NCBI RefSeq assembly: GCF_014334135.1
Contig: NZ_CP060497.1
Coordinates: forward strand, 4,712,001-4,776,000
DNA from: Olivibacter sp. SDN3
GTDB taxonomy: Bacteria > Bacteroidota > Bacteroidia > Sphingobacteriales > Sphingobacteriaceae
Direction: 5' to 3'
Length of the DNA stretch: 64,000 nucleotides
In this document: positions 44,237 through 55,062 of the stretch, one piece after another
Position numbering within the stretch: the first letter of the stretch is position 1
Layout of the letters: each line of letters starts with the position of its first letter
Program-made: the position numbers and the translations under genes
Notes under the pieces: generated by a model
Seen by the model: only the letters and a program-made list of their open reading frames with translations
Told to the model about the DNA's origin: nothing
Database searches by the model: none

Positions 44237-45268
44237 ATGATACAGTTCAATTGGGTAGAGCGATTTATTTTCCCCCCAACATATGGTATATTGATTTATT
44301 TCATCATACGACTGATCACTGATGTATTCGATGGTTCCAAATTCTGGTTAAGGCCGTGGCAACTGAATGCCATCGAAATTTCAACCGCTGTGGTCACCAG
44401 CTATATTATGATCTTTACCATTCGGCATATGCTAAGAAAAAACCTATATAGTATCAGCCACAACAAGCAAAAAGTATCGTCCATAAAAGAATATGCCGAA
44501 GTTATCGGATATATGGAGATTATTGTACTGGTAACCCTCTTACCGATGGCTGCCTTAACAGATGATGGAGCGCAGTTACTTGATATTGTGCTCATATGTT
44601 TGATACCACCTCTATTTATATTACTTTACTATACCATTTCAAAAGGAAATGCCTTGGTGTACATTAATTACGAACGTCAACTGCAAATCGAAAAAATAAA
44701 TGCCGATCAATTACAGACAGAGCTTCAATTACTTAAAGCCCAATACCACCCACATTTTCTATTCAACGCTTTAAATACGGTATATTTTCAGATCGATGAT
44801 ACCAATCAACAAGCCAAACATACGCTGGAAAAGCTTTCAGAATTGCTGCGCTATCAATTATATGATCAATACGAAATAGTGCCGATCAAACAGGAATTAG
44901 ACTATCTGCAATCATATATTGCCTTACAAAAAATAAGGATGAACGAAAGTTTAAAGCTGCATCTACAACTGCCCAAGGAATTAAATCGGCAATCTATTTA
45001 TCCTTTACTACTTTTGCCTTTGGTAGAAAACGCTTTCAAGTATGTTGGAGGAAGTTATCGTATCCAGGTCATCGCGGCTATAGAAGGAAACCGCTTGGTT
45101 TTTGACGTGATCAACTCCATACCGGCTAATATACCGAAGAAAAAAAGTAGCGGCATTGGCCTGGAAAATCTTCGCAGGCGGTTAGCTTTACTGTATCCGG
45201 GCAGACATGAGTTGATTATAGAAAAGCAAGTACAAACTTTCAAGGCTACATTGAGCGTAATTTTGTAA
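44237..45268 (+). CDS. LytS-type membrane sensor histidine kinase
   Basis: The 343-residue protein has four membrane helices in the first 145 residues and a His_kinase domain with the phospho-acceptor His in 'KAQYHPHFLFNALNTVYF' (about residue 172), then a short HATPase region ('SGIGLENLRRRLALLYPGRHE'). It signals to a LytTR response regulator, the next gene, across a 274-bp gap. A short inverted element (around AACCCTTCGGGGTT) lies in that gap. Confidence 0.92.
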   Translation: MIQFNWVERFIFPPTYGILIYFIIRLITDVFDGSKFWLRPWQLNAIEISTAVVTSYIMIFTIRHMLRKNLYSISHNKQKVSSIKEYAEVIGYMEIIVLVTLLPMAALTDDGAQLLDIVLICLIPPLFILLYYTISKGNALVYINYERQLQIEKINADQLQTELQLLKAQYHPHFLFNALNTVYFQIDDTNQQAKHTLEKLSELLRYQLYDQYEIVPIKQELDYLQSYIALQKIRMNESLKLHLQLPKELNRQSIYPLLLLPLVENAFKYVGGSYRIQVIAAIEGNRLVFDVINSIPANIPKKKSSGIGLENLRRRLALLYPGRHELIIEKQVQTFKATLSVIL

Positions 45269-45542
45269 CAAATTCTACAATGGGTAAAGACAACGCTTTC
45301 TATTGCACAAAAAAGAAAAGAGAAACAGATACCAATCAATAATACTCAAAATGAACGGTCGATGTTTAAAATTTCATTTTTTATCACACAGGAAAATGTA
45401 AATTTATTCACGTATTTTAAATGTCGAATTGGTATTCATGAACCCTTCGGGGTTTGAATAAGATAAGCCCCATCTGATCGATGGATAAATCCCGAGCAAC
45501 GGCTCATGAGTAACATTGAAAATTAAATACTGACTAATAATT

Positions 45543-46247
45543 ATGATGAAATTAAAATGTGTTATTACAGACGACGAACCCATCGCTAGAAAGGGTTTAC
45601 AGGGATATGTTGAAAAGCTTGACTTCCTAACCTTGGCAGGCACTTGCGAAGATGCCTTATCTTTAAATACCCTTCTTAAAAACCATGAAGTTGATTTGCT
45701 CTTTCTTGACATTGAGATGCCATATTTATCGGGCATAGAGCTATTACAATCACTAGCTACGCCGCCCAAAGTCATCTTAACTACCGCATACGAACAATAT
45801 GCACTGAAAGGCTATGAACTGGAAGTGATTGACTATCTGTTGAAGCCTATTTCTTTTGATCGTTTCTTGAAAGCGGCCAATAAGGCGGTTGGCTTATTTA
45901 ATAATGACCAGCGGTCTACCATCTCTGATGATGTTTTTGTTAAAGTAGACGGCAAAATAATCAAACTAGCTTGGCAGAACGTTCTCTTTATTGAGGCGTT
46001 GGAGAATTACGTATGCATCCATACCTCTACAGATAAGCACATTGTGCACATCACCATGAAATCCATTTTGGACCAAATACCTGCGAATTTTATACAGGTA
46101 CATAAGTCTTCTATAGTAAATATAACAGCTATCGATGGTATTAACGGTAATATACTGGAAATAGGAAGTGATAGAATAACAGTTTCCCGAAGTTTAAAAG
46201 AGTCGGTCATGGAAAAAATAATTAATAACAAACTATTAAAACGTTAA
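45543..46247 (+). CDS. LytTR-family response regulator
   Basis: The 234-residue protein has a receiver domain (phospho-acceptor Asp in 'DLLFLDIEMPYLSGIELLQ', Lys in 'YLLKPISFDRFLKA') and a C-terminal LytTR DNA-binding domain ('VFVKVDGKIIKLAWQNVLFIEALENYVCIHTSTDKHIVH'). It is the partner of the upstream LytS-type kinase and controls transcription of unknown targets. Confidence 0.93.
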   Translation: MMKLKCVITDDEPIARKGLQGYVEKLDFLTLAGTCEDALSLNTLLKNHEVDLLFLDIEMPYLSGIELLQSLATPPKVILTTAYEQYALKGYELEVIDYLLKPISFDRFLKAANKAVGLFNNDQRSTISDDVFVKVDGKIIKLAWQNVLFIEALENYVCIHTSTDKHIVHITMKSILDQIPANFIQVHKSSIVNITAIDGINGNILEIGSDRITVSRSLKESVMEKIINNKLLKR

Positions 46248-46578
46248 TAAACAGGATCTATACAATATGCCTACAACGGATATTCTATCATTTACCATAG
46301 CTGACGCAAAAAAGGAAATTGAAGCTTATAATTATTATATCGCGGGTGAAATATAAAAAATGCAATAAAACGGCCATTAATAAAAAAAGTAAAAGCCCCG
46401 CTTTTGGGTTAGCAGAGCCTCTACCATTTTAAATCCAACCTGTTTACTAAACGGGTTAACATACCTATTCGCTACAAATCATCTACTATTTTTTGATATT
46501 ATCTGTTTAAGGTCAAAAAACGACGCTCTATCGTATAATTTGGTTTGTTTAAAAGGTAACTTGCAATAGGATGTCTAA
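46248..46578. other. Intergenic interval of 331 bp between convergent units
   Basis: No credible ORF is present. It contains the terminator hairpin for the minus-strand operon (46381-46424). The rest shows nothing I can support. Confidence 0.5.
46381..46424 (-). terminator. Terminator of the ribokinase/ADP-ribosyl operon
   Basis: On the minus strand AGGCTCTGC pairs with GCGGGGCTT, including G-U wobbles, around a 10-base loop and is followed by TTACTTTTTTT. It lies about 155 bases after the nucleoside hydrolase stop. Confidence 0.6.
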
Positions 46579-47598
46579 TCATTTATCTGTTACTGTTTCC
46601 ACCAACCGATTAAGTATACGTTCTCTATGGTCTGGATTCAGTAATAAAATTTGATGCTTACCCTTTGTTGGAGAAAAACGAGTCATACCGTCGTCGTCAA
46701 TCATTATTGTCCCCGAAATCGAACTTCCAAAATAATTCTGGTGGGGTTCTATCGCTTGCAATACAACGGTGAGATCCCATGTTTCTCGATTATAAGGCAT
46801 CTTCATATAGTGGAAATAAGAGTTTACAATAGGATGATGCCAATATTGCGGAAATGCGCTCAATAATTTATCGGCTGGAAATTTCAAAGCGTTCCCAATT
46901 TCCCAACCACTCACGACAATGCGTGTGGGCCAATTTTTAAACACCTGTTGAGCTGCTTGCACATCTTTCACTACATTATATTCAGGAAAAGGTTTTTTGC
47001 CAAACATACCTGCCATCATATACATGCTGATAACTTTTTTTTGAATGAGCTCCTTTCCTTCCAGACTTGAAAACTCGTCAGGTCTCGATGACAACAACTT
47101 CGCCATATTCGTAGAGAACCCCACCACAATTAAGGTTACTGAATGGTCAGGCGCCGCGGCCAAAACTTTTCTTTGCAACTTATAGGCTTCCGGCACCTGC
47201 TTATATCTTTCCGGCGTCGATAAGAATAGGCGCTTTCCATTTTCTTCATAAGCTAATGTTTGCTGCATATATAGTCCTGAATCTGGAGTGGGCCCCGTTT
47301 CACCTATATATCCAATGGCTATATCTCGCAGGCCATAATACGTATTCAGCATATGAATATAGTCTACGGTAACTGGATTTGCTTTTGATATGGTAATAGC
47401 CTTTAGATCAACCTGTTCCTGCTTCTGATAATTATAAAGCATTGCCATCGCTAATACATCATCAATATCGTTCCCTATATCGGTATCAAAAATGATTGTT
47501 TGTTTTGACTGTTGACTATGAGCATTTATTGTTCCCATCATTATGATAACAAGTGCCAATAGTTCCAAAATGTTTACTTTCCTTTTTTTTATACACAT
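46579..47598 (-). CDS. Secreted nucleoside hydrolase (IUNH family)
   Basis: From the ATG at 47598 the protein has 339 residues with a signal peptide ending 'NAHSQ'. The IUNH motif 'IIFDTDIGNDIDDVLAMAML' carries the calcium-binding Asp cluster. Such enzymes cleave the N-glycosidic bond of ribonucleosides to free base and ribose. The signal sequence places the activity in the periplasm. A TTG further upstream is not used. It is the last gene of a minus-strand operon with ribokinase at the top. Confidence 0.9.
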   Translation of the reverse strand: MCIKKRKVNILELLALVIIMMGTINAHSQQSKQTIIFDTDIGNDIDDVLAMAMLYNYQKQEQVDLKAITISKANPVTVDYIHMLNTYYGLRDIAIGYIGETGPTPDSGLYMQQTLAYEENGKRLFLSTPERYKQVPEAYKLQRKVLAAAPDHSVTLIVVGFSTNMAKLLSSRPDEFSSLEGKELIQKKVISMYMMAGMFGKKPFPEYNVVKDVQAAQQVFKNWPTRIVVSGWEIGNALKFPADKLLSAFPQYWHHPIVNSYFHYMKMPYNRETWDLTVVLQAIEPHQNYFGSSISGTIMIDDDGMTRFSPTKGKHQILLLNPDHRERILNRLVETVTDK

Positions 47599-47605
47599 CA
47601 CATTA

Positions 47606-47932
47606 TTAAACAAGTATGAACAATGTTTTCAAAGAAAATGCCGGCCATAGTCCCTGTAAATCAAATGGTTCAATCATCTTTTCTCTAGCATTACTCAAGT
47701 GGATTTGGGATACCCGCCTATTATGATGGTTGCATTTTAATTGAAGTTTTTGGCCACTTGAAGATACATTATATAGGCGAACAATAATTCCATTGCCAGA
47801 CAATGCTGGCTTTACTGCTGTTAATAAGATATTTTCATCATTCAAAGAAACCTTAAGAGCGCCGCAATAGGGCAACGAAAGCTGCACCGAGTTGGCGATT
47901 TTGGTTAAGAGATTTAAAATATTTTTTTTCAT
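47606..47932 (-). CDS. Orphan fragment resembling the GH38 alpha-mannosidase C-terminal domain
   Basis: The 108-residue protein matches the C-terminal beta-sandwich of GH38 mannosidases ('ENILLTAVKPALSGNGIIVRLYNVSSSGQKLQLKC ... EPFDLQGLWPAFSLKTLFI'), where the usual pattern is 'LxAlKpaExGxGiIlRlyN'. The catalytic part is absent and no GH38 catalytic gene lies nearby. It may be a broken gene remnant or a retained small domain. The first ATG (47932) has no signal peptide. It sits 7 bp before the nucleoside hydrolase and 32 bp after the ADP-ribosylglycohydrolase. Confidence 0.5.
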   Translation of the reverse strand: MKKNILNLLTKIANSVQLSLPYCGALKVSLNDENILLTAVKPALSGNGIIVRLYNVSSSGQKLQLKCNHHNRRVSQIHLSNAREKMIEPFDLQGLWPAFSLKTLFILV

Positions 47933-47964
47933 TTTTGGCTAGTTTTATGGTTTGGTCGCCCAGA

Positions 47965-49521
47965 TCAAAGGTGCGCACTTAAGCCATCCGATGGTTTATC
48001 GCTATATACCACATAGTCCCATGCCTGTAATTTATAATCGTGATGCTGGTCTTTAATCACTATTTTAACCTGATGTTTGCCTTTTGGAAGCGCGTATTTC
48101 CAGAAAAGATCATGCCGTCGCGTACGGAAAGCGGTAGGCAACTGCACTGTTTCAACTTTTTCACCGTCGATATAGCAGTCGGCTTCTACAATGCCTTCGG
48201 GCAGGTCTTCATGATCTTTATTCGCTGTTCCTCTTAAAACAAAACCGGTTCCTTCAAAGGCAAAAGTGAATTCGGCATCTATAGGTCGATGAACCTCTTC
48301 GCGAATAATAGGGAAAAAACCCTCAAGGCACTTTTCATAAGCAACCGTTTTTGGTATCTGCGTTTTGATCACAACCATTTTCTCATTTACTTCGCCACCG
48401 TTACGACCAATCATATCTAATGCATGTTTATAGCTGGCCTCATAAACTTTATTGAGCGACATATCGGTATATTTAAAATTCATATCCTCTATATCAGTCA
48501 ATCCTTGCTTCCAATAAGCAGGAATTTTATCGTAGCCAAAGAGTGTACCTAAAATTCCACCGGCCGTAGCAGGATTACAGTCAGAGTCTTGGCCAGCACG
48601 TGTGGCTATTTCAAGTGTTTGTGTAAAATCGCCATCACCATATAATAACCCTAACACAACGTATGCAGCGTTTACTTTAGCGTCGATATTAAATGGTAGA
48701 AAAACACCTTCTGGGCAGCCTACTTCTTCTGTCCATTTTTTCTGAATTTCAAACCATGTCTGTTTCCAATCACCGGGGTATTGTTGGTGCCAATGAATAA
48801 CGTCACTGATACATTGGTGAAAATCACTTTCAGCAGGGATCGTTTTAAGGGCTTCCCCAACAATCTTTTCTATATCATCATACAAAAATGCTAATGAATA
48901 CATAGCGCCAACATATACACCGCCGTACCAACCATCGCCATAATTCATAATATGGCCTACTTTATCACTTATTTGAGATGCAGAGTTTGGCATACCTGGG
49001 TTCATCAATCCAGCAAAATCGGCCTCTATCTGATAATCGATATCATCCGCATGAGGATTATTCCGCCAATGACCGGATGCAGGTGCTTCGATCCCATTTA
49101 AGATATTAAAACGAGCAGCCTGATTGGCATGCCATAGGTTATAGCCTGCATAGGCAAAAGCATTTGCAAAAGAATCAACAGGTGCATCAATACCTAATCG
49201 TTCTATAATGTCAACAAAAGTTAAATCCATGTAAATATCATCATAAAGATCTGGCCATTCAGTCATGAGCTTTTTCATATGACCAGCATTCCATTCAATA
49301 CTTTTGTAATCCTGAATAAAGGTACCATTATACTTGAACTCGGTGGGCCCTCCGAAAGAAACGCCGATAGTTTGACCGGCCCATCCTCCTCTAATTTTAT
49401 CTTTTAGCACCTCATGGCTTAGTTGTAGCTGCTCCTTTTTTTCATTTTGACAAGATACAAACATCACAAAACACCCCAATCCCATAGACATAAACTGGTA
49501 AATTTTCCTTTTAGTTATCAT
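47965..49521 (-). CDS. Lipoprotein of the ADP-ribosylglycohydrolase family
   Basis: The 518-residue protein has a lipoprotein signal (residues 1-24, lipobox 'FVSCQ'). The ADP-ribosylglycohydrolase fold shows 'KIRGGWAGQTIGVSFGGPTEF', a metal-binding 'DDIYMDLTFVDIIERLG' and the signature 'ATRAGQDSDCNPATAGGILGTLFGYDKIP'. The C-terminal part (from about 390) adds a beta-sandwich. Family members hydrolyse ADP-ribosyl-type N- or O-glycosidic bonds. A lipidated form would act in the periplasm or outside. It shares an operon with a permease, ribokinase and nucleoside hydrolase. Confidence 0.88.
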   Translation of the reverse strand: MITKRKIYQFMSMGLGCFVMFVSCQNEKKEQLQLSHEVLKDKIRGGWAGQTIGVSFGGPTEFKYNGTFIQDYKSIEWNAGHMKKLMTEWPDLYDDIYMDLTFVDIIERLGIDAPVDSFANAFAYAGYNLWHANQAARFNILNGIEAPASGHWRNNPHADDIDYQIEADFAGLMNPGMPNSASQISDKVGHIMNYGDGWYGGVYVGAMYSLAFLYDDIEKIVGEALKTIPAESDFHQCISDVIHWHQQYPGDWKQTWFEIQKKWTEEVGCPEGVFLPFNIDAKVNAAYVVLGLLYGDGDFTQTLEIATRAGQDSDCNPATAGGILGTLFGYDKIPAYWKQGLTDIEDMNFKYTDMSLNKVYEASYKHALDMIGRNGGEVNEKMVVIKTQIPKTVAYEKCLEGFFPIIREEVHRPIDAEFTFAFEGTGFVLRGTANKDHEDLPEGIVEADCYIDGEKVETVQLPTAFRTRRHDLFWKYALPKGKHQVKIVIKDQHHDYKLQAWDYVVYSDKPSDGLSAHL

Positions 49522-49551
49522 AACAAAGCTTTTTACTTTTCTACAATTATT

Positions 49552-50565
49552 TTAGTTATTTTCATTTCCAGCAATGATTACAAGCACCAGCCCAGACACA
49601 AACAGGATGAACATGATTATAATGAGCGCATTAACTATTTTAGAAGCTCTCCTAAATTCCTTCCAGATAACTACTCCCCATAGGGCTGCCACCAATGTTG
49701 CACCCTGACCAAGGCCATAAGAAATCGCTGGCCCTGCCTTACCTGCCGCTATGAGGTTGAAAAGATTGCCTATACCCCAAATACATCCTCCCAATATGCC
49801 CACTAAATGAATGTTCTTTCTACCACTGAAGTATTCGCTATATGTTATAGGTGGACCTTCAAGTGGTCTGCGCATCAATAGGGTGTTAAATAATAGATTG
49901 CTAACTAGAATACCTACAGCAAACATCGCAAAAGCGGTATAAGGGGTCATTTTTCCAACCGTTGGCGACACGAAGTCAGTAAGATCCATGCTTGCGGCAA
50001 TGAAGGGATAGAATGTAGACATGAGTATTCCGGCCACAACAGACACTACAATCCATTTACTCGCGGCCTTATTGCTTGAATTACCTGATTGCTGGCGAAA
50101 AGCTATCGCATTAAAAACAATAGCAAGGGTAATAAGACCTACTCCCAAAAACAACAAAACAGGGTTACCCTTACTGAGCAAAAAATAATTAATCAACACA
50201 CCAATTACCAGTGCTAAACCAATGCCTACCGGGAATGCCACTGCCATACCAGCACCTGCTATGGCCGCTGTAAGTAAAATATTAGCAAGGTTAAACACCA
50301 CCCCACCTGTGAATGCACTTTGGATGTAGCGGCCTTCTGCTTGTCCTAAATCATCTAAAAACGATCTTCCCGACGCCCCGATGCTCCCCATCGTAAATGC
50401 GCCGAGAACAGCTAATAAAAAGATACCTAACACATAATCCCAATAGAATAGCTCAAAACGCCATTCCTTTTGTACCAGCTTCTGTGTATTCGCCCAAGAA
50501 CCCCAACAAAGCATCGTAATGATACAGAACGTAACTGCTAATGTATAATCTTGTACGACGAACAT
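49552..50565 (-). CDS. GRP/ureide permease-like sugar or nucleoside transporter
   Basis: The 337-residue protein has about 10 membrane segments with 'MLCWGSWANTQKLVQKEWRFELFYWDYVLG' at the start and 'GAGMAVAFPVGIGLALVIGVLINYFL' in the middle. The family (DMT superfamily; related to GRP sugar and plant ureide permeases) carries ribose, glucose or purine derivatives. The neighbours point to ribose or nucleoside import (inference). It lies 75 bp after the ribokinase and 31 bp before the ADP-ribosylglycohydrolase. Confidence 0.8.
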   Translation of the reverse strand: MFVVQDYTLAVTFCIITMLCWGSWANTQKLVQKEWRFELFYWDYVLGIFLLAVLGAFTMGSIGASGRSFLDDLGQAEGRYIQSAFTGGVVFNLANILLTAAIAGAGMAVAFPVGIGLALVIGVLINYFLLSKGNPVLLFLGVGLITLAIVFNAIAFRQQSGNSSNKAASKWIVVSVVAGILMSTFYPFIAASMDLTDFVSPTVGKMTPYTAFAMFAVGILVSNLLFNTLLMRRPLEGPPITYSEYFSGRKNIHLVGILGGCIWGIGNLFNLIAAGKAGPAISYGLGQGATLVAALWGVVIWKEFRRASKIVNALIIIMFILFVSGLVLVIIAGNENN

Positions 50566-50639
50566 AATTGATTTTATTGGTTAGCGTTTAATAGTTTCCT
50601 TCAATACACCTAAAAATGAATAGCTTTCAGTATATATAT

Positions 50640-51557
50640 TTATTTTATACCATTTAACAACACCTCATTACGGAACGGTATAGACGATTGTGCTCCCATC
50701 TTGGTTACAGCGATAGAGGCTGCTCGACAGGCAAATAAAGTAGCTTCTGTCAGTGCCTTACCTTCGCCCACCGCTACGGCAAGTGCTCCATTGAAGACAT
50801 CGCCGGCAGCTGTAGAATCAATTGTTTCTACTTCTGGGGCCGGGATATGGCAAAATTCACCATCTTCGAATAATACTGCTCCCCGCCTACCCAACGTAAT
50901 GACAACATTTTTAACTCCTTGCTCATGGATTTTTTCAGCTGCTTGCCTTGCACTTGCAATGTCGACAATCTGCACTCCGGAGAGCATCTCCGCTTCGTTT
51001 ACATTTGGTGTAATAATGTCAATGAGATGGAACATACCTGAAACTAGCTCGTTTGCCGGTGCTGGATTGAGTATAACCCGCATTCCCCTCTTGTGGGCAT
51101 AATCTGCCGCAAACTCTACGGTGCGCATCGGTATTTCCAGTTGAATAAGTAATATTTTGCCTTGTGGATATCTGTTTATCGCCTCTTCGACATCTGCCGG
51201 TTCAAGATGGGCATTGGCTCCGGGAGCTACCACAATACTGTTTTCTCCCAGATCATCTACCGTAATAAGAGCAATCCCGGATGGACTGTCGCGATCGGAC
51301 AGTACCCCATTAGTGTCTACACCCTCCTCGTCAAACAATTGAGCAGATTGTTTTCCAAAGATGTCATCCCCAATCTTTCCAATAAATGCTACATCTCCTC
51401 CAAGACGAGCTACAGAAACAGCTTGATTCGCTCCCTTACCTCCTGGATTCATAAAGAAAGAACCGCCTAAAACAGTCTCACCAGGTTTGGGTATATGACT
51501 GGTTTTCACTACCATATCCATGTTCATACTCCCTACTACAATGATTTTTCTGTTCAT
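50640..51557 (-). CDS. rbsK: Ribokinase
   Basis: The 305-residue enzyme phosphorylates D-ribose to ribose 5-phosphate. PfkB signatures are clear: 'GGSFFMNPGGKGANQAVSVARLGGDVAFIGKIGDD' and 'TIDSTAAGDVFNGALAVAVGEG' near the end. It is the first gene of the minus-strand operon. A TAnnTTTG element (TATTTTTG, 51594-51601) lies upstream, but no well-spaced TTG was found. Ribose released from nucleosides by the last gene of the operon would be its substrate (inference). Confidence 0.92.
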   Translation of the reverse strand: MNRKIIVVGSMNMDMVVKTSHIPKPGETVLGGSFFMNPGGKGANQAVSVARLGGDVAFIGKIGDDIFGKQSAQLFDEEGVDTNGVLSDRDSPSGIALITVDDLGENSIVVAPGANAHLEPADVEEAINRYPQGKILLIQLEIPMRTVEFAADYAHKRGMRVILNPAPANELVSGMFHLIDIITPNVNEAEMLSGVQIVDIASARQAAEKIHEQGVKNVVITLGRRGAVLFEDGEFCHIPAPEVETIDSTAAGDVFNGALAVAVGEGKALTEATLFACRAASIAVTKMGAQSSIPFRNEVLLNGIK

Positions 51558-51746
51558 ACTATGGTTAAAATGGTATTCGGTTTATAATGTGGTCAAAAAT
51601 AAGTGATACAAGAAACATAAATTAGCCATTTTTTTATATTTTTATGAATTATAAAACCTAATAAACTAAATAAATAAAATATAACTAATTGTTATACAAT
51701 AATTTAAAATATCATAAATAAAATTTTTAATAGTTTAGTCTTCAAT

Positions 51747-53264
51747 ATGTTAGCTTTTGAATTGGAAAAACTGATAAAATCACTGTCCGCTACGGAAAAA
51801 AAGCTTTTCCGACTTCATTGTGCCAAACTCAAAAGCCATAAGGATTACCTCCTACTCTTTGAATTATCCATTGATAAAAATAATTCAGATAATAAAACTC
51901 TTAGACAGCGCTTTAAGGAAAAGTACCCATCGAAATCGTTCGAGAATACGTCGAACTATCTATATAAGATCCTTACAGATATACTAGTTCAAATACGCGT
52001 TGAACAAGACCTTCGGTACATGCAACATCATAGCCTGATGAAAGCCCGCCTATGCTTTGAACGATCTATTCCTAATAGAGGAAATAAGGAATTACAGAAA
52101 GCATATAGGTTGGCTCAGGAGAATCAAAATTATCCAATGATATATCAAGCAGCACGGATGGAGCTCACTTTATTGGCCGATATTGGTTTTCCAAATATAA
52201 CAGAGCAGCAATTGATAGATTTACAAATGAAAGCCAAGCATACTTTGCAATCTTTACGTCAACTCCATGAACATTATTCACTTTATGAGTTGTTGAGCCA
52301 CCGTCTCACCAAAGGAAGTTTGACTTTCAGTGGTAAGCAAAATGAAAAAATAAATGACCTGATATTAAGCGAATTAAGCATCACTACTCGAGGAAGTCAA
52401 CAGCAATTTGAAACGCAAAAGCTGCATATGTTATTCCAGTCTTTTTTCTTCATTCACACAGGAGAATATCAATCTGCATTAACGGTATTTAAAGAGCTTA
52501 ATACACTTTTTGATACGAATAGAAAGATATGGGACTTTCCTCCTTATGATTATCTCTCCGCACTAGATGGTATATTGGATAGCTTAAGGAGTATAGGTTA
52601 CTATAAAGAAATGGCCCAGTTCATTGATCAAACGCGAGCGTTGTCAAATAAAATGTATCCTGATCATTTTAAAGGTCTTGCCCAGCTCATTGCGCAGGTA
52701 TATTCACTGAATATGTCTATTGGTATGGTAAATCTGAACAAAGCACAGCAGTTGCTGCGTATTTTTAGAAGCGAGAAACCACGGATTGAAGTAGCTGAAG
52801 GCCATGAAAAACAACTTGAATACCTATATTTTGAAGCGTTAACCTATTTTTTAATGAACCAATTGCATAAAGCGAGTAAACACATTAATCAGCTTCTTAC
52901 GATAGGTAAACAGGCACCTCAACTTGGAATGTATCGTGCTGGTAGATTACTGAGTACACTCATTTATTATGAACAAGATGATATGGAATACCTTGAATAT
53001 GAAGTCAGATCTTATAAAAGATTATTCAGCAAATTTGGGAAAGCCTTCAAAATAGAAAAAATGGTCTTTAACACTATTTCATCGGATCCTAAACGACGAG
53101 GCAATGCTTGGAAAAAAGCCATCTGGAAAAATATAAAACCTAAATTAAATGAAATAAAAAAGGATAAAGGAGAGCTGCAATTATTAAAATATTTCGATTG
53201 TTGTGAATGGATCAAAAGTAAATATATCACCATCAACAGTAGTGATATCGATGTAGCTAAGTAA
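51747..53264 (+). CDS. Helical repeat protein of unknown function
   Basis: The 505-residue protein has no signal or membrane segment. It is dominated by amphipathic helices with TPR-like spacing ('EYQSALTVFKELNTLFDTNRKIW', 'ALTYFLMNQLHKASKHINQLL'). The basic N-terminus resembles uncharacterised Bacteroidota proteins of about 500 residues, and no catalytic motif is seen. It divides divergently from the ribokinase operon across a 189-bp AT-rich gap. It could regulate that operon, but this is only a guess from location. Confidence 0.65.
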   Translation: MLAFELEKLIKSLSATEKKLFRLHCAKLKSHKDYLLLFELSIDKNNSDNKTLRQRFKEKYPSKSFENTSNYLYKILTDILVQIRVEQDLRYMQHHSLMKARLCFERSIPNRGNKELQKAYRLAQENQNYPMIYQAARMELTLLADIGFPNITEQQLIDLQMKAKHTLQSLRQLHEHYSLYELLSHRLTKGSLTFSGKQNEKINDLILSELSITTRGSQQQFETQKLHMLFQSFFFIHTGEYQSALTVFKELNTLFDTNRKIWDFPPYDYLSALDGILDSLRSIGYYKEMAQFIDQTRALSNKMYPDHFKGLAQLIAQVYSLNMSIGMVNLNKAQQLLRIFRSEKPRIEVAEGHEKQLEYLYFEALTYFLMNQLHKASKHINQLLTIGKQAPQLGMYRAGRLLSTLIYYEQDDMEYLEYEVRSYKRLFSKFGKAFKIEKMVFNTISSDPKRRGNAWKKAIWKNIKPKLNEIKKDKGELQLLKYFDCCEWIKSKYITINSSDIDVAK

Positions 53265-53285: not shown

Positions 53286-54023
53286 TTATTCGCTGAACGT
53301 ATCACCATTTAACCTATCTATAAGATTTCGCTTATAAAAACGTCCAATTGGTATAACATCAGAAGCGATTCGTATCCTGTCGCTTTTAAAAGAGTTAATT
53401 TTATGAATATTTACAATAAAAGATTTATGTGTTCTCATAAAATCTTCTTCGGGCAGTTTTTCTTCCATATAACTAATTCTTTGATAGGTAACGATCGTTT
53501 TTTGAAGCGTGACTATTTTGATATAATCTTTAATACTCTCAATATACAGAATATCTTTTAAGAATACTTTTATCAATTCCTTATTTACATTGAAATACAT
53601 ATAAACCGATTCCGACGTACGATTATTTTGCAACATCTCAAAGTTTGCTGGAACTGTCACCGTATGTGTGTACTTCGATACTGCTTTTAAGAATCGCTCG
53701 AACCGAAAGGGTTTAACCAGATAATCAAGCACATCCAAATCAAAGCCTTCGGCAGCGTGTTCGCGGTAAGCTGTTGTTATGATGATAGCCGGTTTATGGA
53801 AAAGAGCCTTAACAAATTCTAAACCATTTAATCCGGGCATCTGGATATCGATAAAAAGAAGGTCAATTTCATTTTGCTGAATAAAATTAAAAGCATCCAG
53901 GGCGTTGCTACTATGAAAGATCAATTGCAATGAATGTATTTTATCGATATATGACTTAAGCAACTGTAAAGCAGGCGGTTCATCATCCACCGCCATACAC
54001 CGGATTCTGTTCAAGTTTTCCAT
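53286..54023 (-). CDS. LytTR-family response regulator
   Basis: The 245-residue protein has a receiver domain ('RCMAVDDEPPALQLLKSYI', Asp in 'LLFIDIQMPGLNGLEFVKA', Lys in 'YLVKPFRFERFLKAV') and a LytTR DNA-binding domain ('SVYMYFNVNKELIKVFLKDILYIESIKDYIKIVTLQKTI'). Its first codons overlap the end of the LytS-type kinase gene by 41 bp. A later in-frame ATG (53996) would reduce the overlap to 14 bp. Confidence 0.92.
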   Translation of the reverse strand: MENLNRIRCMAVDDEPPALQLLKSYIDKIHSLQLIFHSSNALDAFNFIQQNEIDLLFIDIQMPGLNGLEFVKALFHKPAIIITTAYREHAAEGFDLDVLDYLVKPFRFERFLKAVSKYTHTVTVPANFEMLQNNRTSESVYMYFNVNKELIKVFLKDILYIESIKDYIKIVTLQKTIVTYQRISYMEEKLPEEDFMRTHKSFIVNIHKINSFKSDRIRIASDVIPIGRFYKRNLIDRLNGDTFSE

Positions 54024-55062
54024 TTTTTATTTTAAGAATAGCTAAAAAAGTGCCTGACTCCGATAAAACATTTAGATCGTGCATCCCTTCGTATAAAATT
54101 TCTAAACGCCTTCGTACGTTCTCCAAACCAATTCCCGTGTTACTAACACCATTCTTGCCAACGCTGTCGGGATAGTTATTTTCTATTTTAACGGTTAGTA
54201 TATCTTCTTTAATAGAAAGATCCACTCGAATCCACGCATCTTGATTTAATTTACTTGCCCCATGTTTAAAAGCATTCTCCACTAACGGTAATAGAAGCAT
54301 TGGACTCATATAAAATTTATCGATGTCAGATAATATATTCAGTGACACATCTAACTTATTGCCAAATCGGATAGTTTCCAGTTCAATATAATTTTGAATG
54401 TATTCGACCTCTTTGGAGAGCGGTACCATATTATCTTTTGCCTTATACAGATTATAATCTAAAAAAGACGATAAACGGTGTATTAGATCGGGAGTTTTGG
54501 GTTTTTGCTGTAGTGAAAAAGAATAAATATTGTTAAGTGTATTAAAAATAAAATGAGGATGTACTTGCATTTTCAATAGTTCCAATTCCGAACGTATTTT
54601 TTCTTTCTGTAAAGTATCTGTGAGCTTTTGCTGTTCATAATAAGACCTGAAAAAATGGATAAAGGAGTATAACCCAACAATAAGATACATATTTACCATA
54701 TCAACAATAAGCTTCGGCAAGTAAAAAAAGGGCTGAAGGTTACCTTCGGGATAATATCTTGGATAGGTATAATAATAGTAAAACAACCTTCGGATAAATA
54801 ACAAGATAAGCATGGTGCCTATTGCCGCTACCCAGAACAGTTGCTTTTTGTCTTTCAAATAATAATTATTAAAATATACATGTACTGTGAGTGTGGCGGC
54901 AATAATTGTTGTAGGTACAAATAAACAGGTAGACATAAGGTGTCTTCTATACTCGCCGCTCATATAAGCCTGGGTCAACCAGTCGTAGCAAAAATACAGC
55001 AGCCAAAACACAGCATTAAATACGTATTGGTTATTCAACCACTTCTTTGTCAACGAAAACAT
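53983..55062 (-). CDS. LytS-type membrane sensor histidine kinase
   Basis: The 359-residue protein has four membrane helices (about 10-150), a coiled linker, the phospho-acceptor His in 'KMQVHPHFIFNTLNNIYSF', and a C-terminal ATP-binding part ('NTGIGLENVRRRLEILYEGMHD'). It pairs with the overlapping LytTR regulator downstream. The signal sensed by the membrane domain is unknown. Confidence 0.92.
   Translation of the reverse strand: MFSLTKKWLNNQYVFNAVFWLLYFCYDWLTQAYMSGEYRRHLMSTCLFVPTTIIAATLTVHVYFNNYYLKDKKQLFWVAAIGTMLILLFIRRLFYYYYTYPRYYPEGNLQPFFYLPKLIVDMVNMYLIVGLYSFIHFFRSYYEQQKLTDTLQKEKIRSELELLKMQVHPHFIFNTLNNIYSFSLQQKPKTPDLIHRLSSFLDYNLYKAKDNMVPLSKEVEYIQNYIELETIRFGNKLDVSLNILSDIDKFYMSPMLLLPLVENAFKHGASKLNQDAWIRVDLSIKEDILTVKIENNYPDSVGKNGVSNTGIGLENVRRRLEILYEGMHDLNVLSESGTFLAILKIKNGKLEQNPVYGGG

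Follow-up and report, generated by a model that had tools for sequence, protein, structure and literature searches.

The original paper on Rus, the ribose-utilization system of Bacteroides thetaiotaomicron, by Glowacki et al. in 2020, is said to report diversified ribose-utilization systems across the Bacteroidetes. In B. thetaiotaomicron, Rus (BT2803-2809) is required for ribose use and RusT is proposed to move the free sugar (PMC12596196); the gene content of the operon from BT2804 onward has been listed, and includes a DUF4969 protein (PMC10434189). The yegTUV operon of Escherichia coli, with a putative function tied to glycogen and ADP-glucose, places a transporter beside a protein of the ADP-ribosylglycohydrolase (ARH) family, YegU, and a PfkB-type kinase, YegV (PMC10819704). 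Here we describe an operon of Olivibacter sp. SDN3, located in a window of 64,000 nucleotides (ie the whole stretch of DNA that was analysed; contig NZ_CP060497.1, positions 4,712,001 to 4,776,000), in which a ribokinase, a carrier, an ARH-family lipoprotein and an exported nucleoside hydrolase are encoded together. It is very probably a Rus-like operon for the use of ribose, in which exported hydrolases would free ribose, the carrier would import it and the ribokinase would phosphorylate it.

The operon and its products

The genes for the ribokinase, the GRP/ureide-permease-like carrier, the ARH lipoprotein and the nucleoside hydrolase all lie on the minus strand, in that order of transcription. 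They are spaced 30-75 bases apart, except at the interval between the last two, which holds an open reading frame (ORF) of 108 amino acids. The operon ends at a terminator rated strong, 3' of the nucleoside hydrolase gene. The features, in window positions, are as follows.

50640..51557, minus strand: ribokinase rbsK (RusK-like), first gene of the operon; TIGR02152 and NF008353 above cut-off
49552..50565, minus strand: sugar transporter of the GRP/ureide-permease family (RusT-like); PF07168, PF06800
47965..49521, minus strand: exported ARH lipoprotein, a PF03747 catalytic domain with a C-terminal jelly-roll domain
47606..47932, minus strand: 108-amino-acid ORF matching the GH38 C-terminal beta-sandwich (PF17677), probable gene relic
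46579..47613, minus strand: exported nucleoside hydrolase (RusNH-like), last gene of the operon; PF01156
46388..46425, minus strand: intrinsic terminator at the operon end; 15-pair stem and T run, fold z -4.1
51747..53264, plus strand: divergent 505-amino-acid all-helical TPR-type protein, candidate RusR-like regulator from its position, homologues and model
51594..51601, minus strand: TATTTTTG, candidate Bacteroidota-type -7 element ahead of rbsK, from a pattern match

A preliminary description of this DNA had grouped the four genes, and the ORFs and profile matches above cut-off bear it out; its inventory overlooked the divergent regulator candidate (51747-53264) and the GH38-like fragment. 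The genome is a single contig of 6,118,654 bases, and in these 6.1 Mb the carrier, the ARH lipoprotein, the nucleoside hydrolase and the divergent regulator candidate have one match apiece, all inside 6.7 kb. With this clustering, and with like gene neighbourhoods present in dozens of other Bacteroidota, the grouping is more than chance.

The ribokinase scores 362.6 bits against TIGR02152 (cut-off 299.65) and is 51-81% identical to the rbsK products encoded beside ARH genes in other genomes. The carrier matches both PF07168 (Ureide_permease, 103.5 bits) and PF06800 (Sugar_transport, 43.9 bits) above cut-off, and it is 55-59% identical to most of its matches from 18 of the 60 genomes in a Bacteroides genus set, several of which lie within Rus-type clusters. 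The nucleoside hydrolase gene begins at 47613 (TTG) or, as is likely, at 47601 (ATG). Its product matches PF01156 with 77.4 bits, conserves the acidic and catalytic set (D45, D51, D52, N169, E211, N213 and D280) and carries a Sec-type signal cleaved between AHS and QQ, a site which fits the Q-rule for signal peptidase I in Bacteroidetes (PMC5837995). Its identity to the nucleoside hydrolases of two Bacteroides Rus-type clusters (L144 and L145) is 43-46% across the matched part; the best identity within its own family, among 301 genomes, is lower, at 42%.

The pathway would run as follows. The ARH lipoprotein and the nucleoside hydrolase would cleave ribosyl compounds, either in the periplasm or on the cell surface, and so release D-ribose. 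The GRP-family carrier would take up this sugar and the ribokinase would convert it to ribose-5-phosphate, which feeds the pentose phosphate pathway. Expression would be governed by the divergent TPR-type protein.

Comparison with Rus and with related loci

Olivibacter shares with Rus of B. thetaiotaomicron a ribokinase, a GRP-type transporter and an exported nucleoside hydrolase, and it has a RusR-like gene beside rbsK. In Bacteroides Rus-type clusters other than that of B. thetaiotaomicron, the same regulator family adjoins rbsK. Cluster L144 of the Bacteroides genus set encodes, in order, two ribokinases, SusC, SusD, a DUF4969/DUF4978 protein, a nucleoside hydrolase and the carrier, and this content matches that published for the BT2804 operon (PMC10434189). 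Rus has two ribokinases, whereas the Olivibacter operon has one, and the ARH lipoprotein is found in place of the DUF4969/DUF4978 protein of the B. thetaiotaomicron-like cluster. The idea that RusGH of B. thetaiotaomicron is an ADP-ribosylglycohydrolase was dropped, given the DUF4969/DUF4978 protein in that cluster and the DUF4969 protein in the published list (PMC10434189).

A closer likeness is seen in Parabacteroides distasonis (NZ_OY725755.1), where the annotated genes for rbsK, ARH, nucleoside hydrolase and GRP carrier adjoin one another, the same four as in Olivibacter. The ARH protein there is 57% identical to that of Olivibacter and the divergent regulator is of the same family, but the last genes are in another order and there is no GH38 fragment. 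The E. coli operon yegTUV likewise joins the roles of transporter, ARH-family protein and kinase, but YegU is without an N-terminal export signal, and the transporter, YegT, is a predicted nucleoside symporter from another family.

For a wider view, 80 ARH relatives were retrieved and their neighbouring ORFs grouped over 86 loci, which were selected by tBLASTn and are not a random sample; as many contigs are short, the counts of co-occurrence are lower bounds. In this survey of the operon across Bacteroidota, which the preliminary description had proposed, the ARH gene belongs to a co-directional run that also holds rbsK and/or the carrier at 46 of the 86 loci, and at 30 of the 51 with long flanks. 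The run includes a nucleoside hydrolase at 17 of the 86 loci, SusC at 20 and SusD at 18. The nearest larger relative, in Parapedobacter pyrenivorans, has the arrangement regulator, rbsK, carrier, ARH, as in Olivibacter, with identities of 66, 81, 79 and 71%, respectively; related gene sets occur in Spirosoma and Flammeovirga. The accessory enzymes encoded near ARH relatives differ from locus to locus (sulfatase, GH97, GH2, metallophosphoesterase, esterases, DUF4434, DUF4832), which would fit the harvesting of ribose from a range of sources.

Some points weigh against a Rus-like function. There is no SusC or SusD ORF in the Olivibacter operon up to the terminator, and Rus has the pair, as do three relatives (L015, from Olivibacter jilunii, L021 and L027). 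Such a pair is the strict criterion for a polysaccharide utilization locus (PUL), and the operon, probably Rus-like in its working, is therefore not filed as a Rus PUL. The likeness was drawn through clusters of the Bacteroides genus set, with the B. thetaiotaomicron genes entering by their published description, and the support within Olivibacter itself consists of genes, sequence comparison and predicted models. Lastly, in 21 of the 51 well-flanked loci the ARH gene lies outside any run with rbsK or the carrier, which indicates that the enzyme is not tied to the ribose pathway alone. We class the operon as an ordinary ribose-utilization system, in a form lacking SusC/SusD.

Outside the Bacteroidota, a Deinococcus aetherius plasmid (L148) has a ribokinase gene flanked by two genes of the ADP-ribosylglycohydrolase family, a link of both families in another phylum.

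The divergent regulator candidate and other features

The 505-amino-acid protein encoded divergently from rbsK has no Pfam match, and no DNA-binding domain was identified in it. The structure predicted for it (pLDDT 85) is helical throughout and forms a TPR superhelix, nearest to Rap/NprR (Z 19.6, root-mean-square deviation 5.4 over 298 residues), a resemblance which is only moderately telling for helical repeats. Rap/NprR TPR proteins bind peptides or partner proteins. The candidate is 33% identical to the product of a gene divergent from rbsK in Bacteroides, and members of its family occur with rbsK in 19 of the 86 loci, divergently and less than 600 bp apart in 15. From its gene position we infer a RusR-like regulator, which probably controls expression of the operon.

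The candidate -7 element, TATTTTTG, lies 36 bases upstream of the rbsK ATG. A match to TANNTTTG is present 21-61 bases upstream of the ATG in seven of 10 such regions, a weak signal as the DNA is AT-rich. No operator motif common to the regulator and rbsK was found beyond AT-rich words.

The 108-amino-acid ORF (47932-47606) matches PF17677 with 33.6 bits, the sole such match in the genome. It is probably a relic of a larger, putative glycosidase gene. No real relative of it was found in 301 genomes of the family and 395 of the class, nor in plasmids, the other match in those genomes being a subtilase-like ORF judged spurious. In Parapedobacter (L010:12008-15871), a 1287-amino-acid protein with DUF6807, DUF7133, HEAT and cytochrome c parts is encoded between two ARH genes, unlike the other ribose clusters. 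The 108-amino-acid ORF was also compared with this gene, which lies 3' of an ARH gene, as a possible parent, and did not match it.

Pairs of histidine kinase and LytTR response-regulator genes at 44237-46247 (plus strand) and 53286-55062 (minus strand) bracket the ribose operon and its regulator and are oriented towards them. In relatives, no such pair was seen near the ARH gene save at one locus (L071).

The exported ARH-family lipoprotein and its substrate

The PF03747 domain of the lipoprotein is full-length (134.8 bits, cut-off 26.2; model positions 1-286 of 287). The signal peptide read from the translation is MITKRKIYQFMSMGLGCFVMFVSC, followed by QNE, with a lipobox-like FVSC near residue 25. 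The preliminary description had singled out the export of an ARH protein as unusual, but 85 of 87 ARH homologues have a hydrophobic N-terminal export-type signal, and export is thus the rule in this Bacteroidota subfamily. A simple lipobox pattern fits 37 of the 87, the others having a plain hydrophobic N-terminus. The Olivibacter protein may be periplasmic or surface-facing.

In the structure model (predicted local distance difference test, pLDDT, 92.8), residues ~34-375 form the all-helical ARH fold, closest to ARH3 (Z 32.5, root-mean-square deviation 2.5 over 296 residues), with ARH1, DraG and Tri1-type folds at Z 26-28. Residues ~401-508 form a jelly roll resembling CE2 carbohydrate esterases (Z 10). 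A sequence search of the PDB returned a weak match to a Tri1-type hydrolase and nothing else. E61, D94, D95, D312 and D314 are invariant among 61 homologues, and in alignments the acidic active-site and metal-site residues share columns with E. coli YegU and other PF03747 members. Tyr93 and Cys315 stand where Thr or Ser is usual in the two ARH motifs; the site thus keeps its acids but differs in other positions from that of its relatives. Loss of the metal-site Asp pair, which would follow from taking YMD as the motif, was rejected, as D94-D95 align in the DD columns of the relatives. The protein thus shares fold and acidic positions with ARH3, ARH1 and DraG, and differs from them in its export, its C-terminal jelly roll, the Tyr/Cys changes, its ribose operon and an identity to ARH3 of ~13%.

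A second exported ARH subfamily is encoded beside the first in several ribose clusters (L089:3990-6038, L141:4455-6419 and L092:9998-11944). Its members are about 650 amino acids long and 25-28% identical, with a DDDTD motif, and the one in L141 has an Ig-like C-terminal part.

The preliminary description proposed the scavenging of nucleoside and ADP-ribosyl compounds. The conserved gene order and the match to Rus uphold the release of ribose from ribosyl compounds; the ADP-ribosyl part is backed by the family name only. Cleavage of true ADP-ribosyl compounds outside the cell (on protein or nucleic acid, poly-ADP-ribose or NAD-like molecules) would agree with the retained metal-site acids and with the action of the nearest solved folds, ARH3, ARH1 and DraG, on ADP-ribosyl bonds. 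Hydrolysis of such a bond yields ADP-ribose, however, which is not a substrate for the ribokinase, and the operon encodes no pyrophosphatase, Nudix enzyme, phosphatase or other enzyme to turn it into ribose. Enzymes encoded elsewhere could supply that step, and metallophosphoesterases are found in some related loci, but the operon partners, ribokinase and nucleoside hydrolase, need ribose or nucleosides. Moreover, at ~13% identity specificity for ADP-ribose is not transferable from ARH3. We consider an ADP-ribosyl substrate unlikely. A plain ribosyl compound, which the preliminary description had allowed for as the alternative, is the likelier substrate, given that the ribokinase needs free ribose and that pyrophosphatase and phosphatase are missing from the operon. 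We infer that the lipoprotein cleaves a plain ribosyl bond rather than an ADP-ribosyl bond; the linkage may be alpha, as it is for the relatives of the enzyme.

Salvage of nucleosides or bases, imported by the carrier with the ARH protein in a side role, would accord with the nucleoside hydrolase in the operon and with the higher score of the carrier against Ureide_permease than against Sugar_transport. We find it improbable: the sugar that the ribokinase phosphorylates is ribose, rbsK and the carrier are retained in many related loci that lack a nucleoside hydrolase, base-salvage enzymes are not among the recurrent neighbours at ARH loci, and RusT is given as a ribose transporter (PMC12596196). 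It is similarly improbable that the lipoprotein acts as a glycosidase on some other furanose or glycan, merely sharing an operon with ribose genes, for despite its esterase-type jelly roll, the sulfatases, GH97, GH2 and esterases near its relatives, and the location of some of those relatives away from rbsK, the commonest conserved partners of ARH are rbsK and the GRP carrier.

With ribose utilization as the preferred function of the operon, attention turns to the substrate of the ARH protein. The exported subfamily could be a putative new family of ribosidases freeing ribose from glycans or metabolites that contain it, for which 'ADP-ribosylglycohydrolase' would be a misnomer; this is a tentative proposal and we regard it as somewhat doubtful. 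No literature linking an ADP-ribosylglycohydrolase to ribofuranosidase activity or polysaccharide utilization was found, in a search outside which the original Rus paper fell. For Bacteroidota, ribose is a genuine nutrient, available from nucleosides and elsewhere. An intact ADP-ribosyl-hydrolase site in a widespread exported family with a setting of ribose use suggests that many annotated ADP-ribosylglycohydrolases may be extracytoplasmic ribosidases, and the Olivibacter operon offers a simple genetic setting in which to examine that idea.

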